Both the position numbers and the translations under genes were made by a program. From an uncultured Roseovarius sp. (GTDB lineage: Bacteria; Pseudomonadota; Alphaproteobacteria; Rhodobacterales; Rhodobacteraceae), in assembly GCA_947499555.1 (NCBI GenBank), contig CANMOU010000001.1, positions 186,001-250,000 of the forward strand: a stretch of 64,000 bases of DNA, given 5' to 3'. Below are positions 9,828 through 34,892 of the stretch, piece after piece. Every line of letters starts with the position of its first letter. Within the stretch, counting starts at the first letter, position 1. The notes beneath the pieces were generated by a model. It saw nothing but the letters and a program-made list of their open reading frames with translations. It had not been told where the DNA came from and did no database searches.

Positions 9828-11486
9828 ATGACCGAATTGCTCACAGCAGCCCAAATGCGGGCCATCGAACAAGCCGCGATTGAGTCGGGAGAGGTCACAG
9901 GGCTTGAGCTTATGGAACGCGCCGGGCGCGGTGTGGTTGAGGCGGTGTTCGAGGAATGGCCGGATCTCGCCAAAGCCCCGCACCGGGCCGTGGTTTTGTG
10001 TGGCCCTGGGAACAATGGCGGCGATGGGTTTGTCGTGGCGCGACTTTTGAAGGAGTGGGGCTGGGAGGTGGAGGTGTTTCTCTACGGCGACCCTGAGAGG
10101 CTGCCGCCCGATGCGAAGGAGAATTATGAGCGGTGGTTGGAGATGGGGCGAGTGATGCCCATCTCCGAATTTCCTGAGGACGAGCCAGAGTTGTTAGTGG
10201 ATGCTCTTTTTGGAACAGGTTTGACCCGGCCCATCGAAGGGCTTTTCGATCAATTCCTCCATCTCAATGAAGAAGTTGTTCGAGCAAGTTACTTTGATTT
10301 TGCAAATCTTCGGTTGACATGCATTGACCTGCCAAGCGGTGTTTGCAGCGACAGCGGACGCATCCTGGCATCTAACAACTGGACCGAGGAGGCGCAGTGG
10401 TTTCGACCAACAGCGCTGAAAGGCCAACTGACCGTTACTTTTCATAGCTTGAAATTGGGCCATGTGCTTAAAAACGGCGCTGCTAGTTGCGGCAAAACCG
10501 TCGTTAGCAGCATCGGCTTGGAGGGCAGCCCGACGGCGACGCCGGGCGAGGTGGTTCTTATAGTCGAAAAGCCCTCCATCCAAATTTTGAAAGCACCCTC
10601 ATTTCACAAATACCACCACGGCCACGCTCTCATCCTCTCCGGCCCTCCCGGCCAAACCGGCGCCGCCCGACTTGCTGCCAGAGGCGCGCTGCGCATTGGG
10701 GCAGGGCTTGTCACCCTCGGCGTGCCGCCTGCGGCGCAACAGGAAGTGGCGAGCCAGATCACCGCCATCATGCTCAAACGGGTCGAGAACGCGGAGGCGC
10801 TGGCCGATGTCTTGCAGGATGATCGTTTGAATGCGCTGTGCCTTGGCCCGGCGTTGGGGCTGGATGAGAGGGCGCGCGAGCTTGTAAAAGTGGCATTGAC
10901 GGCCCCGTATCTCGAAAGCGAAGATGCGGTGCCCGCGATGCCCCCGGTCTTAATCGGTGAGGGCCCGGATGCGCGGGCGGTGCGATCGATGGTATTGGAT
11001 GCTGATGCTCTGACGCTGATATCGCGTGATAAAGACCTTTTTTCACTTTTACACCCTGGTTGCGTCCTCACCCCACACGCTGGCGAATTTGCCCGCCTCT
11101 TTCCGGACATCGCCGAGAAACTCAACACGCCCGCCACCAAAGGCCCGGCCTATTCCAAAGTCGACGCAACACGCGAGGCCGCCGCGCGGGCCGGGTGCAT
11201 CGTCCTGTTCAAAGGCCCCGACACCGTGATCGCCGCCCCGGACGGGCGCTGTTCGATCAACTCCGCGCAGTACGACCGCGCCGCGCCCTGGCTCGCCACT
11301 GCAGGATCGGGCGATGTGCTGGCCGGGTTCATCACAGGGCTTCTCGCACGGGGGGTTCCGCCGATGTCGGCTGCGGAAACGGCGGCCTGGCTACATGTGG
11401 AATGCGCGCTTGGTTTTGGTCCCGGCCTGATTGCTGAGGACTTGCCAGAGGAACTGCCAAAGGTGTTCCGCGCTTTGGGTGTCTGA
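9828..11486 (+). CDS. nnr: bifunctional NAD(P)H-hydrate epimerase/dehydratase
   Basis: Repair enzyme for damaged NAD(P)HX. The N-terminal YjeF domain (epimerase; CGPGNNGGDGFVVARLL) is followed by a C-terminal ribokinase-like domain (ADP-dependent dehydratase). That domain has GHALILSGPPGQTGAARLAA at its start and the anion-hole motif AGSGDVLAGFITGLLARG. The ATG at 9828 has a clear AGGAGAGAG site; longer frames lack one. Between about 10200 and 10620 the base composition drops and codons become unlike those on either side. This covers the end of the epimerase domain, so the gene may be a recombination mosaic. All 552 residues remain in frame. Confidence 0.93.
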   Translation: MTELLTAAQMRAIEQAAIESGEVTGLELMERAGRGVVEAVFEEWPDLAKAPHRAVVLCGPGNNGGDGFVVARLLKEWGWEVEVFLYGDPERLPPDAKENYERWLEMGRVMPISEFPEDEPELLVDALFGTGLTRPIEGLFDQFLHLNEEVVRASYFDFANLRLTCIDLPSGVCSDSGRILASNNWTEEAQWFRPTALKGQLTVTFHSLKLGHVLKNGAASCGKTVVSSIGLEGSPTATPGEVVLIVEKPSIQILKAPSFHKYHHGHALILSGPPGQTGAARLAARGALRIGAGLVTLGVPPAAQQEVASQITAIMLKRVENAEALADVLQDDRLNALCLGPALGLDERARELVKVALTAPYLESEDAVPAMPPVLIGEGPDARAVRSMVLDADALTLISRDKDLFSLLHPGCVLTPHAGEFARLFPDIAEKLNTPATKGPAYSKVDATREAAARAGCIVLFKGPDTVIAAPDGRCSINSAQYDRAAPWLATAGSGDVLAGFITGLLARGVPPMSAAETAAWLHVECALGFGPGLIAEDLPEELPKVFRALGV

Positions 11487-11520
11487 GCAGACGGGGACCG
11501 GATAAGACCAGGATCGCCGC

Positions 11521-12015
11521 CTAGGCAGCTTTGGTGCCGGCCTGCACAGTGGTCAGCGTGCCAAGCTCAAGCCCGTCGGCGTAGATCACATGAAGTGCGT
11601 CGAAATGCAGCTGGTAAAGCGTATGAGTTTGCAACCCAAGGTCGGAAATGAATTCTCCGTCCACCAGCCGCCCGGCAGGCACCAAGGCCTGCGCGGCGCC
11701 AAAAACAGCTTCGGCACGCCAGTCACGTATCAGCACAGGCTGATCTGCGGGCAACGTCACATCACGTTCAGGCCGGGTATGGCCCAGCGACCCGGCCTTG
11801 ATCTGCACAAAACCGGTCTCTGCCTCGTGCCGCTCCATCGCTCTGAGCGCGACCGCGCCCCGATCACGGGTGATGATCCGCATGCCAGAGCGAAGCGCCT
11901 CAACCGGCTGTTCACCTTCCAGTGTCAAGACTATGGTCCCGGCCAGCAATCCAGCAGGGGATGTTTCCAAGGATATCGATTTGGCGTCAGCTGTGCTGAC
12001 CCTGTCTGCCGTCAT
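11521..12015 (-). CDS. Hint-domain protein
   Basis: A 164-residue protein built almost only from a Hedgehog/intein (Hint) domain: AGTIVLTLEGEQPVEALRSG, then LPADQPVLIRDW and a C-terminal LHVIYADGLELGTL. Roseobacters carry many such proteins, often at the end of RTX-type secreted proteins. Here the usual first-position nucleophile (Cys before the TLI-type strand) is replaced by Ala-Gly, so self-splicing or autoprocessing chemistry is doubtful. No signal peptide is seen. It is convergent with nnr. Function unknown. Confidence 0.75.
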   Translation of the reverse strand: MTADRVSTADAKSISLETSPAGLLAGTIVLTLEGEQPVEALRSGMRIITRDRGAVALRAMERHEAETGFVQIKAGSLGHTRPERDVTLPADQPVLIRDWRAEAVFGAAQALVPAGRLVDGEFISDLGLQTHTLYQLHFDALHVIYADGLELGTLTTVQAGTKAA

Positions 12016-12166
12016 CGGTTTGCTCGCTCTGATCTTGCCTGTTTTTTGCAGCAGATTATGGCAAGAATTCGTAAATGTCGCGTGTTTTCTGCAGGTCTAA
12101 TTTCCACGAAAGCCGCGACGATTTCCTCTCGCATCCCGGCCAGCGCTTTGCTAAGAGCGGCGCGAT

Positions 12167-12251
12167 GCGGGTGTGGCGAAATTGGTAGACGCACCAGATT
12201 TAGGTTCTGGCGCCGCAAGGCGTGGGGGTTCAAGTCCCTCCACCCGCACCA
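12167..12251 (+). tRNA. tRNA-Leu (UAG anticodon)
   Basis: Acceptor arms GCGGGTG and CACCCGC pair perfectly, the D-arm contains the AATTGGTAGACGC pattern, and the anticodon stem CCAGA/TCTGG closes a 7-base loop with TAG at 12201-12203. A long variable arm (GCGCCGCAAGGCGT region) marks a class II tRNA, and the T-arm has GGTTCAAGTCC. The 3' CCA is encoded (12249-12251). The 85-base length is normal for leucine tRNA, reading CUA and other CUN codons. Confidence 0.97.
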
Positions 12252-12532
12252 GTTTTCCCAAGAACTGGACCTTGTTGTGCCTTGACGCAAAAGGCATGAC
12301 ACCTGCGTTCTTCCCAAAGCCTGATACGACCTCTTTCATCAACATCCTCTCGGTTTTCGGCAGCAGGCCGCTTAGACGCTCTGCTCTCTTGAAAATATGA
12401 TCCCCGCCGGGCTCCTTTTCTGCGTTAGGACATTTGAGATTGGGCCAAGCTGGGCTAATTTCATAACTGGGATTCTGGTGGCAACTCTCAGACACGCATG
12501 GGATAACGGGCCGCAGATTGGAGCGTTCTTTC

Positions 12533-14329
12533 GTGATTTCGCCGATTTTTTTCCGGGTCATGTTTTTCTGCGTCGTCGCACTGGCCGCCACCCGCGCGGC
12601 TTTCGCAGTCGAGGTGTCGTTGCGCGCGCCGGGGGCGAGCGAGGATTTCGTGGAGTACCTGGAATCCGCGTCGCTTTCGGTTGAAACATCGCGCGTCGAA
12701 GGCGCCGTCGCTCAAGACATCCTGGCAGCGGCGCGCGCAGATTATCAGCGCCTTCTCAGCGCGCTTTATGAACGTGGGCGTTACAGCAGCGTGATCAGCA
12801 TCAAGGTCGATGGGCGCGAGGCCGCGGGCATCCCACCCGTGGGCGGGACGAAGACCGTCTCTCGCGTCGAAATCCTGGTTCAGACCGGGCCAGCCTTTCG
12901 GTTCGCCACGGCGCGCGTCGCGCCGCTTGCCGCCGGAACTGAACTGCCCGAAGGATTTGCCGCAGGCGCTTTGGCGCGGTCCGACACCATCGTTGATGCC
13001 GCGCAGGCTGGTGTGGACGGGTGGCGTGATCAGGGACATGCCAAGGCACGTGTCAGCAACCAGTTGATCATCGCAAATCACGCCAGCTCAGAGCTGACAG
13101 CCGATATCAGGCTGGCACCGGGTCCGCGACTGCGCTTTGGCAACCTGAAGGTCGATCCAAATGGAAGGGTACGGCCGGAGCGGATTAGGGCGATAGCCGG
13201 CCTGCCCACGGGCGAGGTCTATTCGCCCGAAGCATTGCAAAAATCGAGCCAAAGATTGCGCCGCTCAGGCGCCTTTCGCTCAGTCGTTCTAAGCGAGGCT
13301 CAGACGCCCGGTCCGGATGGCACGCTCGACATCATGGCAGAGCTTGTTGACGCCAAGCCAAGACGGTTTGGCGTCGGTCTTGAACTGGCCTCGGTCGAGG
13401 GGTTTTCCTTTAGCGCTTTCTGGATGCATCGTAATCTTCTTGGTGGCGCGGAGCGGCTGCGCTTTGAAGGCGAAGTCCGGGGCGTCGGTGGAGACACTGA
13501 TGGCGTCGACTACAGATTATCAACACGGTTTGAACGCCCGGCCACGTTTACCCCCGATACGACGCTCTTTCTTGGGGCCGCCATCGAGGATCAGGACGAG
13601 CCGGAATTCAATGAGCGCAGCGTCCTTATCGGGGCAGGTCTTTCGCATATTTTCTCCGATGAGCTATCCGGCGAAGCGGGCATCGCCTACAGGTTTTCAG
13701 ACATCGATGATGATGCGGGGCCAAGAACGCTCGAACAGGTCTTGTTCCGCACCAGCCTGACCTATGATGATCGGGACGACCCTTTGGATGCGCATGAAGG
13801 ATATTTTGGCAATCTCGAAGTGACCCCGTTTGCGGCTGTGGGCGATGGTGGCTCTGGCGCGCGGCTCTTTCTTGATGCGCGGACCTATTTCGGCTTTGGC
13901 AAAGACAGGAGGCATGTCGCGGCCTTCAGAGGGCAAATCGGCTCAGTGCTTGGGGCAGGGCTTACCGAAGTGTCGCCGGACATGCTGTTTTTCTCTGGTG
14001 GGGCCGATACCGTGCGAGGACAACCCTTCCAATCGCTGGCAGTAGACCTTGGAGGCGGCAATCGCCTTGGCGGGCGATCCTTTGCTGCAGCTTCCGCTGA
14101 ATTTCGAACCGACTTCAATGACACCTGGGGCGCTGTCATATTTACCGATGCCGGTTTCGTCGGTGCTGACAGTTTTGGCGCCAGCAGCGGTGAATTTCAT
14201 GCAGGCGCGGGGTTTGGTGTGCGCTATCATACAGGGATCGGGCCCATCCGCGTCGATTTTGGCACCCCGATTGGCGATGACGCAGGCGAGGGGTTTGAAT
14301 TTTACATCGGCATAGGACAGGCATTTTGA
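12533..14329 (+). CDS. tamA: translocation and assembly module outer-membrane protein TamA
   Basis: Omp85-family barrel that, with TamB, inserts or feeds outer-membrane proteins and lipids. A signal peptide ends around TRAAFA, POTRA domains fill roughly residues 25-260 (RFGNLKVDPNGRVRPERIRAIAGLPTGE is a POTRA-type segment), and the C-terminal half is a 16-strand barrel. It carries the Omp85 VRGQPFQS lid motif and ends in an aromatic FYIGIGQAF strand. The GTG at 12533 has GGAG at 12520-12523; a TTG at 12518 lacks a ribosome site. The stop overlaps the tamB start (TGATG). Confidence 0.93.
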   Translation: MISPIFFRVMFFCVVALAATRAAFAVEVSLRAPGASEDFVEYLESASLSVETSRVEGAVAQDILAAARADYQRLLSALYERGRYSSVISIKVDGREAAGIPPVGGTKTVSRVEILVQTGPAFRFATARVAPLAAGTELPEGFAAGALARSDTIVDAAQAGVDGWRDQGHAKARVSNQLIIANHASSELTADIRLAPGPRLRFGNLKVDPNGRVRPERIRAIAGLPTGEVYSPEALQKSSQRLRRSGAFRSVVLSEAQTPGPDGTLDIMAELVDAKPRRFGVGLELASVEGFSFSAFWMHRNLLGGAERLRFEGEVRGVGGDTDGVDYRLSTRFERPATFTPDTTLFLGAAIEDQDEPEFNERSVLIGAGLSHIFSDELSGEAGIAYRFSDIDDDAGPRTLEQVLFRTSLTYDDRDDPLDAHEGYFGNLEVTPFAAVGDGGSGARLFLDARTYFGFGKDRRHVAAFRGQIGSVLGAGLTEVSPDMLFFSGGADTVRGQPFQSLAVDLGGGNRLGGRSFAAASAEFRTDFNDTWGAVIFTDAGFVGADSFGASSGEFHAGAGFGVRYHTGIGPIRVDFGTPIGDDAGEGFEFYIGIGQAF

Positions 14330-30929: not shown

Positions 30930-31280
30930 ATGCCCCTGATCACGCTTAGCCAGACGCCTAGCGCCCTGACCACATCCGTGGACAGGCTGGCACGCCAGCT
31001 TGCCGATTTAGGCCATGAGCTGGACGCTATGTATGAGCGCGTCAGGGATGGTGATTTCGGCGAGTTGAAGAATGCAACCAAAGCGACGGCGGATCTCCGG
31101 CAGTGGCTGAGGATTGCCATCGAAGCGGAGGCGCAACTTGCAACCCGAGAAAAGCAAGAGCTTGGTATCGTCAACTCCTACGGCCTTGACCTCGACTGGG
31201 CCAAAGAGACGATTGGATGTGAACTGGATCGTCTCAGAAGGTCCAGAGATTCAGTCGGAGTTTCTCGAGAATCTGAATGA
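30930..31280 (+). CDS. GTA gp1-like protein (terminase small subunit)
   Basis: A 116-residue, mostly helical protein immediately before the large-terminase remnant, matching the size and position of gene 1 of the Rhodobacterales gene transfer agent, which acts as the small terminase (TerS). Helices with many charged residues (ALTTSVDRLARQLADLGHELDAMYERV-like) make a coiled-coil ring plausible. Its 3' end overlaps the start of the next frame by 62 bases. The gene is intact although the capsid and tail genes it would serve are missing here, so it is probably a relic. I rely on context more than on motif. Confidence 0.6.
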   Translation: MPLITLSQTPSALTTSVDRLARQLADLGHELDAMYERVRDGDFGELKNATKATADLRQWLRIAIEAEAQLATREKQELGIVNSYGLDLDWAKETIGCELDRLRRSRDSVGVSRESE

Positions 31281-33645
31281 CGGCGAGATGCTTGCCTTGC
31301 CCTATCTCTTTGAGTTCTGGGCGATGGATCATCAACTGCCGCCCGAAGGTGACTGGCGCGCCTGGGTGGTGATGGGCGGACGCGGCGCTGGCAAGACCCG
31401 CGCAGGCGCAGAATGGGTGCGTGCGCAGGTCGAAGGATCGCGACCGCTTTATACCGGAAGATGCAAGCGCATCGCTTTGGTTGGCGAAACGATCGATCAG
31501 GTGCGCGATGTGATGGTTTTTGGCGAAAGCGGCATTATGGCCTGTTCGCCGCCAGACCGTCGCCCAAGCTGGCAAGCGACGCGCAAGCGGCTTCTATGGC
31601 CCAACGGTGCGATTGCGCAGGTCTATTCGGCGCATGATCCGGAGAGTTTGCGTGGCCCGCAGTTTGACGGAGCCTGGGTTGACGAATATGGATGCGCGGC
31701 GGTGGACAAGGCCACAAATCATCCGAACCGGTTTATCGACGAAAAATCCTCGGAATCGCTTTTGCCCGCTTTTTCAGACGGTAAGCGCGATGAGTTGATC
31801 CAATTTCAATATCTCCGCGCGATTTCGGAATACTGGATTACCCCCGATAACAACCCTGTATCCGAGGTCTATGACGCGCCGATGATCGACATGGATCATG
31901 CCTATGTCTGGGCTTGGGATATGCGCCCGTATCCTCAGTTTCCCAACAATCAGGATTTATGGAGTGATGGCGCGAACTATGCGCGCGGTCATTGGATCAA
32001 TGGCCGTGTTTCGGCACGTTCGCTGGCATCGGTGGTTGAAGAGGTCTGCGCAAGGACCGGCCTTAGGCAGGTCGATGTAAGCGCTCTCTACGGGCTTGTG
32101 CGGGGCTACAGCGTGGACCAGGTCGGCGAGGCCCGCGGCACGTTGCAGCCTTTGAGCCTGCGGTACGGATTTGATGCGGTCGAGCGCGACGGTGTGCTGC
32201 AATTTGCCATGCGCGATGGTCAGGTGGACACGGTGATCGATCCGGACCTGCTGGTTCGTGATCCTGACATGGCGGGGCTCATCGAACTGACGCGCGGCAG
32301 TGCCATTGAGCTCGCTGGCCGCGTCAGGCTTCGCTTTGTTGAAGCGGATGGCGATTTCGACGTGATTGCGGAGGAAGCAATCTTGCCTGATCAGGCGACA
32401 CATTCGGTCTCAACCTCCGAGTTTCCGCTTGTCATGACACGGGCAGAGGGGCGGCAGACGGTCGAGCGTTGGCTGGCCGAGGCGCGAACGGCCACAGATA
32501 CATTGCGGCTTACCCTGCCACCCTCACAGATGTGCGTTGGTGCAGGCGATGTGATTGCCATCCCCGAAGATGGTGGGCAGGGGCATTATCGTATCGATCG
32601 CACGGAGCAACTGGCCGGCGCGCAAAAAGTCGAGGCGGTGCGCGTCGAGGCAGACACTTATGAGACGGTAGACATCGCGGAATCGACTGCGCCATTGGCG
32701 ACCTTTCAGCCACCCAGTCTTGTGACGCCGCTATTTTTGGATCTTCCCCTGATCACGGGTGAAGAGACGCCGCATAGTCCGCATGTGGCGGCTTTTGGCA
32801 GTCCATGGCCCGGCAATGTCGCGATTTATGCCTCTGACGAAGATGCGAATTATGCGCTCAACACGTTGATCGAGGCACAAAGCGTTGTCGGTGTCCTAGA
32901 AACAGCACTTGCACCCGCCTGCGCGGGCCGGGTTGACCACGGCGGTGTTGTGCAGGTTCGAATGCTGAACGGCACGCTGCAAAGTGTGAGCGACCAGGCC
33001 TTCCTTGGCGGGGCAAATCTTTGCGCGATCGGTGACGGAACGCCCGGCCACTGGGAGCTCGTGCAGTTTCGCGATGCAGAGCTTGTGGATACCAACACCT
33101 ATCTTCTGTCGCATCGCCTGCGCGGCCAAGCTGGCACCGAGACTGCCATTGCATGGCCTGAGGGGAGCTATTTTGTGCGTCTTGATGGCAGTGCGAGACA
33201 AATCGAGATGGCCGAAGCCCGGCGTGGATTGGCGCGGTATTACCGGATCGGACCAGCCGCTCGCGCGGTCGATGATCCTTCCTACAGTGCAGCACTTCTC
33301 GCGTTTGACGGGATCGGGCTGCGCCCGCTGAGCCCGGTGCATTTGCGTCTAAGTGGAGCCGCTGGATACGACCGAACCCTGACCTGGATCCGACGCACGC
33401 GAATTGATGGAGATCGGTGGGACACGCTGGATGTACCGCTCGGCGAGGAAAACGAAAGCTACCTTGTGCGCGTCCGTCAAAATGGCGCTGTGCAGCGGGA
33501 GGCAGTCGCGAGCGCCTCAAGCTGGACGTATTCAACCGCGGCACAGGCCGAGGATGGGCTGGTTGGCGACTACAACATCGAGGTGGCGCAAATCTCGGCC
33601 AAATTCGGGCCGGGCCAACCTGCCGTGTTGCACGTGACAGGTTGA
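31219..33645 (+). pseudogene. GTA large terminase fused in frame to GTA gp15 C-terminal part (deletion relic)
   Basis: One open frame of 808 residues made of two halves. Residues 1-156 are the N-terminus of the GTA/phage large terminase: LPYLFEFWAMDHQLPPEGDWR, Walker A GGRGAGKT (53-60), LVGETIDQVRDVMVFGESGI, WPNGAIAQVYSAHDPESLRG and the start of Walker B (AWVDE). From about residue 157 the sequence becomes the C-terminal part of GTA gp15, the large baseplate/host-specificity protein: YGCAAVDKATNHPN, DEKSSESLLPAF, YVWAWDMRPYPQFP, DGANYARGHWINGR, and an intact end. The join lies at about 31681-31689, where both parents have a D/E-E codon context. The nuclease domain, portal, protease, capsid and tail genes are absent. 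GTG start at 31219. Confidence 0.8.
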
Positions 33646-33657
33646 GCTTGCCCGCGG

Positions 33658-33996
33658 TCAGCCCCGGGCGCAGTCGACGCATTTCAAGGCCGCCGGATCA
33701 AGCTGCAAGCGGCCTTTGGCAATCTCGTCTCCGCAATCATCGCAATACCCGAATTCCCCGTCATCCAGCCTCTCCAGTGCTGCCAGAAGACGCCCGCGCT
33801 CGGCGTCTCTGCGCGCGCCGGTGGCCTTGGCCATCGCCTGGTTTTGCAGGGCATCCATGCGGCTTAGCCGTCCGACGGCCTGCTGGTCGAGCTCAACCGT
33901 GGCTTTTCCGGCCTCTCCCAGAACATCTTCGCCGCTCAGAGCGTGCAGACGCGCCTCGATCAGGGATCGGAATTCAGCCGCCAAACTATCATCCAT
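33658..33996 (-). CDS. TraR/DksA-family C4 zinc-finger protein
   Basis: A 112-residue protein with a long N-terminal coiled-coil region and a C-terminal zinc finger whose cysteines are in FGYCDDCGDEIA and LKCVDCARG (C-x2-C...C-x2-C). DksA-like proteins bind RNA polymerase in the secondary channel and modulate transcription with ppGpp. It is shorter than DksA itself, so closer to the small TraR/YbiI group. It is convergent with the GTA chimera, ending 12 bases beyond it. Confidence 0.88.
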   Translation of the reverse strand: MDDSLAAEFRSLIEARLHALSGEDVLGEAGKATVELDQQAVGRLSRMDALQNQAMAKATGARRDAERGRLLAALERLDDGEFGYCDDCGDEIAKGRLQLDPAALKCVDCARG

Positions 33997-34082: not shown

Positions 34083-34892
34083 ATGGCCGAAACCCGTGCG
34101 AAACTTGCTGAACTTGATCCCGTATGGGCTCAGATTACTGTTGAAGCCGAGGCGGCTGTTCGCGATGAGCCGCTTTTGGGCGGCTTGGTGCACAGCTCAA
34201 TTCTGCACCATAAAACGATCGAATCTGCGCTTGCATACAGGATTTCTCTCAAACTGGCGTCCAATGAAATGCCTGAGCAGATTTTACGAGAAATCTGCGA
34301 CATGGCTTTCGCCGCCGATGCGCGGATTGGCCATGCGGCGCGTGCGGATATTGTGGCTGTGAATGACCGCGACCCGGCCTGTGATCGTTTCATTCTTCCG
34401 ATGCTCTATTTCAAGGGTTTCCAGGCCGTGCAAGCCTATCGCGTTGCGCATTGGCTTTGGAACAATGACCGCAGAGATATGGCGCGGTTTTTCCAGATGC
34501 GCTGCTCTGAGGCGTTTGGCGTTGATATTCACCCGGCCGCCAGGATCGGTAAGGGCGTCATGATCGACCATGCACATTCCATCGTCATTGGCGAAACCGC
34601 CGTTGTGGGCGACAACGTGTCGATGTTGCATTCGGTGACGCTGGGCGGCACCGGCAAGGAAGAAGAAGACCGCCATCCCAAGATCAGTGATGGGGTTCTG
34701 ATCGGGGCCGGTGCCAAGGTTCTTGGCAACATCAGAGTGGGTCATTGCTCGCGCATTGCCGCCGGATCCGTGGTTCTGGCCGAAGTGCCGCCCTGCAAGA
34801 CCGTGGCGGGTATCCCGGCGCGTATTGTTGGCGAGGCTGGCTGTGATCAGCCGTCACTGTCGATGGACCATATGCTGGGAAAAGATCAGTAA
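34083..34892 (+). CDS. cysE: serine O-acetyltransferase
   Basis: Makes O-acetylserine from serine and acetyl-CoA, the first step of cysteine synthesis. An N-terminal helical domain is followed by a left-handed beta-helix with hexapeptide repeats (GVDIHPAARIGKGVMIDHAHSIVIGE ...). The catalytic His-Asp pair is in the MIDHAH and MLHSVTLGG segments. An AAGGAG ribosome site is upstream of the ATG at 34083. Length 269. It lies just before cysK on the same strand, and the two enzymes can form the cysteine synthase complex. Confidence 0.96.
   Translation: MAETRAKLAELDPVWAQITVEAEAAVRDEPLLGGLVHSSILHHKTIESALAYRISLKLASNEMPEQILREICDMAFAADARIGHAARADIVAVNDRDPACDRFILPMLYFKGFQAVQAYRVAHWLWNNDRRDMARFFQMRCSEAFGVDIHPAARIGKGVMIDHAHSIVIGETAVVGDNVSMLHSVTLGGTGKEEEDRHPKISDGVLIGAGAKVLGNIRVGHCSRIAAGSVVLAEVPPCKTVAGIPARIVGEAGCDQPSLSMDHMLGKDQ

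Follow-up and report, generated by a model that had tools for sequence, protein, structure and literature searches.

The closest described system is the RcGTA-type head-tail cluster of gene transfer agents (GTAs; genes g1–g15), which occupies the same locus, with g1 and the terminase gene (TerL) at one end, the "megatron" gene (gp15) and cysE at the other and, mostly, fabF–mltG upstream; its TerL and megatron are homologous to the two halves of the gene reported here. In contrast to that cluster, everything from the C-terminal half of TerL to the N-terminal half of the megatron is gone at the present locus, and only g1 and a TerL–megatron chimera are left. Precise excision that joins two gene parts is known from the nifD element and skin, developmentally excised elements located inside genes; unlike in those cases, we found here no repeat and no retained excised segment, and the product is a chimera of two genes rather than a repaired one. 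Recurrent pseudogenisation and loss of GTA genes, together with "cheater" lineages, have been described (PMC10883770), and the present locus resembles those cases in that some lineages within a group that bears GTAs have lost these genes and in that the genomes carrying the fusion keep a GTA-family holin. It is unlike the losses described there in consisting of a chimera with a joint fixed to one codon pair, and the word "fused" is absent from that text. Compared with the RcGTA megatron gp15 (6tba/6teh; domain names and map as given in PMC7296036), the chimera retains the end of the peripheral/TIM part, the central hub-like domain and the fibre-binding domain, whereas the ATPase half of TerL stands in place of the iris/penetration and adhesin-like domains, along with the greater part of the peripheral domain.

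The window analysed is a stretch of 64,000 nt from an uncultured Roseovarius sp., whose genome is labelled G000 (other G numbers denote compared genomes, and L numbers denote loci). The features of the locus are as follows.

30930..31280, + strand: gene in the position of GTA gp1 (116 aa), kept 5' of the chimera; named by position
31219..31683, + strand: N-terminal half of TerL (residues 1–155), from the P-loop (GGRGAGKT) to Walker B (WVD); Terminase_6N
31684..31686, + strand: joint codon GAA (Glu), where TerL WVD-E and megatron FT-E coincide; found in 21 distinct genomes
31684..33645, + strand: C-terminal 653 residues of the megatron (gp15); Pfam and NCBIfam matches, and a match to residues 613–1299 of RcGTA gp15 (6tba_8A)
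33658..33996, - strand: DksA/TraR-type zinc-finger gene bordering the GTA locus; zf-dskA_traR
34083..34892, + strand: serine acetyltransferase-like gene at the downstream border of the locus, taken to be cysE

Positions 31219–33645 form one open frame, without an internal stop as far as the stop codon ending at 33645 (TTG 31114 is an alternative start farther upstream), and this frame, present in a single copy in its own genome, encodes residues 1–155 of the GTA terminase followed by the last 653 residues of the megatron. The first-pass annotation had proposed an uninterrupted in-frame fusion of two GTA-derived halves, and domain matches from both parents bear this out: Pfam Terminase_6N at residues 51–157 (50 bits), GTA_TIM at 147–242 (profile positions 204–299 of 299), Phage-tail_3 at 301–463 and Rcc01698_C at 556–653, and NCBIfam GTA_megatron (NF048004) at 151–804 (profile positions 643–1297 of 1299, 755 bits). 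The last of these scores below the curated cut-off of 800 bits and covers the C-terminal part of the profile only, which places the chimera outside the equivalog. Walker A and Walker B are both present, predicting a terminase ATPase half, and the sequence departs from TerL at residue 156, the C-terminal half (presumably the nuclease half) being absent. The TerL half is ~77–86% identical to the corresponding half in other Roseovarius.

At the joint (31683/31684), TerL reads GAWVD up to 31683, the Glu codon occupies 31684–31686, and the megatron follows as YGCAAVDK. Roseovarius loci without a deletion here mostly read GAWVDEMAKW or GAWVDELAKW at the joint point of TerL, and KPVRFTEYGCAA or variants at that of the megatron; the deleted stretch begins at TerL codon 156 and extends as far as a Glu codon within the final part of the TIM domain of the megatron. 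In Roseovarius nubinhibens ISM, a strain without the deletion, the megatron continues through the joint point. Among 25 Roseovarius clusters with no deletion or only a partial one, the two points are 11.3–12.7 kb apart in 24, and 4.0 kb apart in the remaining one (G020), which carries a partial deletion.

The surroundings of the chimera are those of the standard locus. The gp1-position gene has a homologue at the corresponding position of Roseovarius loci both with the fusion and without the deletion (75–77% identity to those of G079, G030 and G031); searches with it gave no Pfam match above the curated cut-off and, at the limits applied, no match in NCBIfam or PHROGs. The conserved chromosomal arrangement mltG–cysE is found in the source genome, and 17 of the 18 fused loci with flanks read have cysE downstream (the remaining one is cut by a contig end) and 16 have mltG upstream, no mltG being found near the loci of G014 and G027. 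The zinc-finger gene adjoins the megatron in 28/34 Roseovarius regions, some of which are incomplete.

The earlier annotation had suggested a genome-wide search for GTA structural genes. Our query combined the C-terminal half of TerL, a portal fragment, the greater part of the capsid and a section of the N-terminal half of the megatron; it gave no match anywhere in the source genome, and all four of its parts were matched in the control genomes G079, G007 and G033. In 16 other fused genomes it gave only weaker matches, which occurred in four of them (G067, G018, G027 and G176; 31–54% identity) and are taken as other phage elements; beyond these, no excised segment was found elsewhere in the 17 fused genomes. 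The source genome has therefore lost the genes for the C-terminal half of TerL, the portal, the capsid and the N-terminal half of the megatron, and does not hold the set of portal, capsid, whole TerL and whole megatron that marks a productive RcGTA-type cluster. The holin family PF11351 (GTA_holin_3TM) was present in all 34 genomes searched, namely 14 unfused genomes and 20 fused ones (all but Litoreibacter; partial in G188). This combination of missing structural genes and a GTA-family holin persisting elsewhere in the genome is that expected of a non-producer, or "cheater". We read the chimera as the mark of a GTA-null locus, in which gp1 and the fusion are left and 11–13 kb are gone.

The view of the locus as the relic of a deleted GTA is thus right as far as the missing parts go, but the deletion is not a one-off, as the identical GAR joint codon was found in all 21 genomes with the chimera. 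These are 9 of the 85 Roseovarius genomes (the source genome included), one genome from each of eight other genera, three more from one of these eight, and one from Litoreibacter; each species is represented by a single genome in the set. A protein search of the 85 Roseovarius genomes, which is independent of the joint, gave matches from the start of TerL to the end of the megatron in G000, G012, G014, G017, G018, G027, G046, G047 and G067, and all nine spanning matches listed have the same joint. A degenerate pattern of the joint matched ten times in 394 genomes of the family (393 genera), nine of these matches being chimeras (the source genome included) and one a chance match, and the reversed control of the pattern gave one match in the same survey. 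Since the pattern misses megatrons with Ile or Met after the Glu, these counts are lower bounds. No match was found in the 380 genomes from outside the family within a 385-genome sample of the class, whose codons the pattern may not fit, and a joint pattern had no match in viral contigs. In the second genus (that of G139), the pattern matched five of 62 genomes, four of them real, and a protein search of 60 genomes returned the same four spanning matches, 4/4 with the same joint. No chimera joined even one codon off occurred among the matches listed in the two protein searches. The residue following the joint Glu is Y, L or F, in each case a type native to the megatrons of the family or of the lineage. 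Among the titles and abstract openings listed by searches of the open-licence PMC literature, none mentions a TerL–gp15 fusion.

A second protein search, covering 53 loci, returned three with a match extending from TerL as far as the end of the megatron. One of them, in Roseovarius sp. MMSF_3350, has this joint and is not counted apart from G067, and an uncultured Litoreibacter has a TerL–megatron match with this joint as well. The third, L046 from a Rhodobacteraceae MAG, has a different deletion and is out of frame; in its positions 10001–13319 the TerL frame is nearly whole, and the megatron starts from ~37 codons upstream of the usual joint.

That the chimera is an artefact of assembly is close to negligible as an explanation. 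The source assembly is a draft of 23 contigs, which leaves room for such an error, but the same joint occurs in many independent assemblies of different sequence, some of them in few contigs (one for G139, two for G014, three for G188, and six each for G046 and G047), and this makes an assembly collapse very unlikely. A metagenome contig end (L076), considered as the branch point in the assembly of a mixed population, was set aside because it ends ~12 nt before the joint, an offset that does not fit.

Fused and unfused alleles are interleaved in the trees of both halves. The tree of the megatron half (43 rows) contains 8 changes between the fused and unfused states, at least 7 of them forced, and the DNA tree of the TerL half also contains 8, at least 4 of them forced, with none of 200 bootstrap trees showing a single change. 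When clusters from 12 further genomes outside Roseovarius were taken in (55 rows), the megatron-half tree had 15 changes, against a mean of 15.2–15.3 after shuffling, with at least 9 forced by the starred branches, and the TerL protein tree had 12, only 2 of them forced. Only 3 changes were forced in the cysE tree and only 1 in the TerL tree of the second genus. Rows treated as intact in these trees are those without a deletion at the joint, and include G020 (partly deleted), G019 and G911 (each with a stop), and G030 and G031 (each with a frame change in TerL). Several sister relationships recur in both halves, the source strain grouping with G079, G030 and G031, and G017 with G033, and G007 falls within the fused group of G046, G047, G012 and G067 in both; for the second genus, the megatron half groups G904 with G905 and the TerL half groups G891 with G907. 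A single vertical clade of fusions kept by function was rejected on account of this interleaving. The tree of middle genes from 25 clusters, compared by eye, largely agrees with that of the megatron half, so that the clusters look vertically inherited, and reintroduction of whole clusters was rejected on the same ground.

Damage of other kinds is also present among the Roseovarius clusters. Deletions with different ends run from the portal to the megatron in G001 (L149), from the end of TerL to the end of the megatron in G061 (L151), and from the end of TerL to g13 in G020 (L100). The TerL genes of G030 and G031, close relatives of the source strain, have a frame change in the N-terminal half, by which their GTA may be broken too. 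In G084 (L152), TerL is frameshifted and was the only GTA gene found in the region examined. TerL and the megatron lie ~60–80 kb apart in G035, G059, G023 and G041, as if the cluster had been split by rearrangement. The single-contig genome G051 contains five matches to the megatron; a further three, listed with identities of 37–38%, are probably prophages.

The first-pass annotation had explained the joint by microhomology, as an ordinary recent deletion in this strain unrelated to any other. Loss of GTA genes recurs in alphaproteobacteria, according to the available part of PMC10883770, and the other deletions and frameshifts in Roseovarius, together with the TerL-to-megatron deletion with other ends in L046, agree with such a history. 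Microhomology, however, finds no support at the joint: the parents have at most the GAR codon in common, and the local repeat scores 2–7 across 36 clusters, in which 828–158,322 in-frame pairs of TerL and megatron positions score as well or better. We consequently rejected repeat-mediated deletion, the joint repeat being unremarkable among such pairs. With 21 identical joints in interleaved lineages as well, an ordinary deletion is contradicted by the data and appears very improbable; since one codon pair is joined in every case, independent random deletion cannot explain the joint.

Sequence features that could direct an enzyme to the two places were likewise not apparent. Shared direct 7-mers reached a top of 11/37 clusters, similar to shifted controls (tops of 5–12), and inverted 7-mers around both sites reached at most 8/37, a figure that stands without a control. 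A core or recognition sequence common to both ends was not found, only GAR being shared, although a two-base core flanked by unlike arms would still be conceivable. Wobble positions at both sites differ in their nucleotides, a variation that an enzyme recognising a fixed sequence could not easily tolerate. An intein with a homing endonuclease, inserted in TerL at Walker B, was the single enzyme route put to the test and was rejected as the cause: no intein was found at this place in GTA TerL in the 394 family genomes, in which Intein_Nterm matched in six (five over the cut-off), none of the seven loci convincingly matching GTA proteins.

Two observations were made in passing. In L202 (G911), an otherwise open megatron frame of 1316 codons has as its sole internal stop a TAA that replaces the Glu at the joint codon, a single case that may be due to chance. 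In L215 (G386), a terminase-like gene unrelated to GTA TerL carries, as judged by eye, an apparent intein at Walker A.

The fused gene is generally in good condition. The frame is full-length in 19 of the 21 chimeras, the exceptions being G139, which is frameshifted, and G223, which is cut by a contig end; 16 fused frames (the source one included), counted from the aligned start, are free of stops over 797–812 aa, and three further ones in the second genus are open over 835–874 aa. We computed dN/dS for each half, as had been proposed, and obtained 0.03–0.26 (TerL) and 0.11–0.25 (megatron) for five fused–fused pairs, near the 0.015–0.14 of seven valid TerL pairs and the 0.065–0.24 of nine megatron pairs that are unfused; these values are rough, as many dS values exceed 1, and the TerL ranges leave out two unfused pairs and one fused–unfused pair affected by the frame change of G030/G031. 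No significant excess of changes at otherwise invariant sites was seen in the fused rows (TerL, p = 0.57; megatron, p = 0.24), and Walker A is kept in 18/18 fused rows checked. The chimera evolves like its unfused counterparts, with no sign of relaxed constraint, and the fused copies are therefore young, or constrained, or continually converted.

Constraint on the protein would be expected if deletions arose at random and only this in-frame chimera, running from Walker B through the Glu into the megatron, folded and conferred a benefit, so that it was selected each time. The full frames, the dN/dS values, the preserved Walker A and the absence of an excess at conserved sites all agree with such convergent selection. 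On the other hand, young copies predict the same constraint, joints at nearby codons should be permitted if folding alone were selected, yet none is among the matches listed, and G139 carries its frameshift. In addition, no head-tail partner for the retained hub and fibre-binding domains was found with the four proteins tested; because no other head-tail protein was found in the cell, we see no clear role for the chimeric protein. Taken together, we regard convergent selection as distinctly unlikely.

The invariance of the joint would follow at once, in all 21 genomes, if there had been a single old deletion that persisted as an intraspecific polymorphism and was transmitted vertically or through recombination in its two homologous arms, with resident DNA converting the arms up to the joint. 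The clean frames and unrelaxed constraint would then be the outcome of constant conversion. GTA packets hold ~4.4 kb in R. capsulatus, and the cluster exceeds packet capacity (PMC6209664, in the available part of that text); we suggest that packets from producers could convert the arms in non-producers, but could not refill a gap of 11–13 kb. The DNA beside the joint agrees with an exchanged allele in part. G046 and G047 are mosaic to the left of it, being 97% alike over the last 60 nt before the joint and 88% over the last 120, and in Roseovarius the similarity on the right is slightly higher between two fused clusters than between two unfused ones (0.82 versus 0.78 over the 60 nt next to the joint, then 0.81 versus 0.73), in a pairwise comparison uncorrected for clade. 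G027 (both sides) and G018 (right side) have their nearest relatives in fused genomes from different clades, and over 120 nt to the left, G000 is closest, by a very small margin, to fused G012 and G047.

Other parts of this DNA point the other way. G033 is the closest relative of G017, and G905 that of G904, in the 60-nt windows on either side; G891 and G907 have in common an Asn codon ~20 nt to the right of the joint, and the right side of G000 carries from about nt +28 a signature common to G030 and G031. In several lineages, though not in all, the arms immediately flanking the joint are those of the lineage itself. Kinship near the joint is not always to the sister, G014 (both sides) and G018 (left side) being nearest to G058. 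Over the last 30 nt to the left, fused–fused pairs are no more alike than others (0.862 versus 0.856), and no consistent haplotype common to the fused alleles was seen beside the joint, the nearest kin being mixed in several genomes; horizontal spread in the form of a shared joint haplotype was rejected for this reason. Given the native type of the residue after the Glu, conversion would have had to reach within ~3 nt of the joint. Persistence over many genera is also hard to explain for an old allele without an advantage over ordinary GTA loss, an advantage that might come from the chimera. We consider one old joint allele a possible explanation, if a somewhat doubtful one.

The reading that we tentatively place first, by a narrow margin, is that the deletion would be made afresh in many lineages, by a process acting at these two places, with a putative recombinase or nuclease as its agent. 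The full frames and dN/dS values make each loss look young, yet the joint is invariant, and a site-specific process fits a joint with zero variance whose arms are native in several lineages. Also counting for such a process are the other Roseovarius deletions, which have different ends, the interleaved trees and the retained holin; the lack of a recognition sequence and of an intein in GTA TerL, the unremarkable repeat, the wobble variation and the non-sister kinship near the joint count against it. Under recurrent site-specific deletion, the outcome would be young non-producer strains within species that otherwise keep their GTA. Such strains would still receive DNA without paying the cost of lysis, and would be short-lived on an evolutionary time scale, leaving the frame without time to decay, so that the chimeric protein need have no function. 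The stronger proposal, that Rhodobacteraceae excise the GTA core by a precise recurring event between the Walker B codon of TerL and a conserved Glu codon of the megatron, as a programmed or enzyme-driven switch from producer to permanent non-producer, seems to us somewhat unlikely. A site-specific process and an old, exchanged joint allele fit the evidence about equally well.

At the level of DNA, the finding poses the puzzle of how one codon pair comes to be joined in many lineages without a repeat. It also touches on the open question of how costly GTA production survives against non-producers: the details of selection on production versus non-production are described as unknown in the available part of PMC10883770, as are the forces maintaining GTA genes in that of PMC6209664. 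A single GTA-null joint, detectable by PCR, would allow non-producers to be counted in cultures and in seawater, and would let their de novo origin, their coexistence with producers, or their sweeps be tested.
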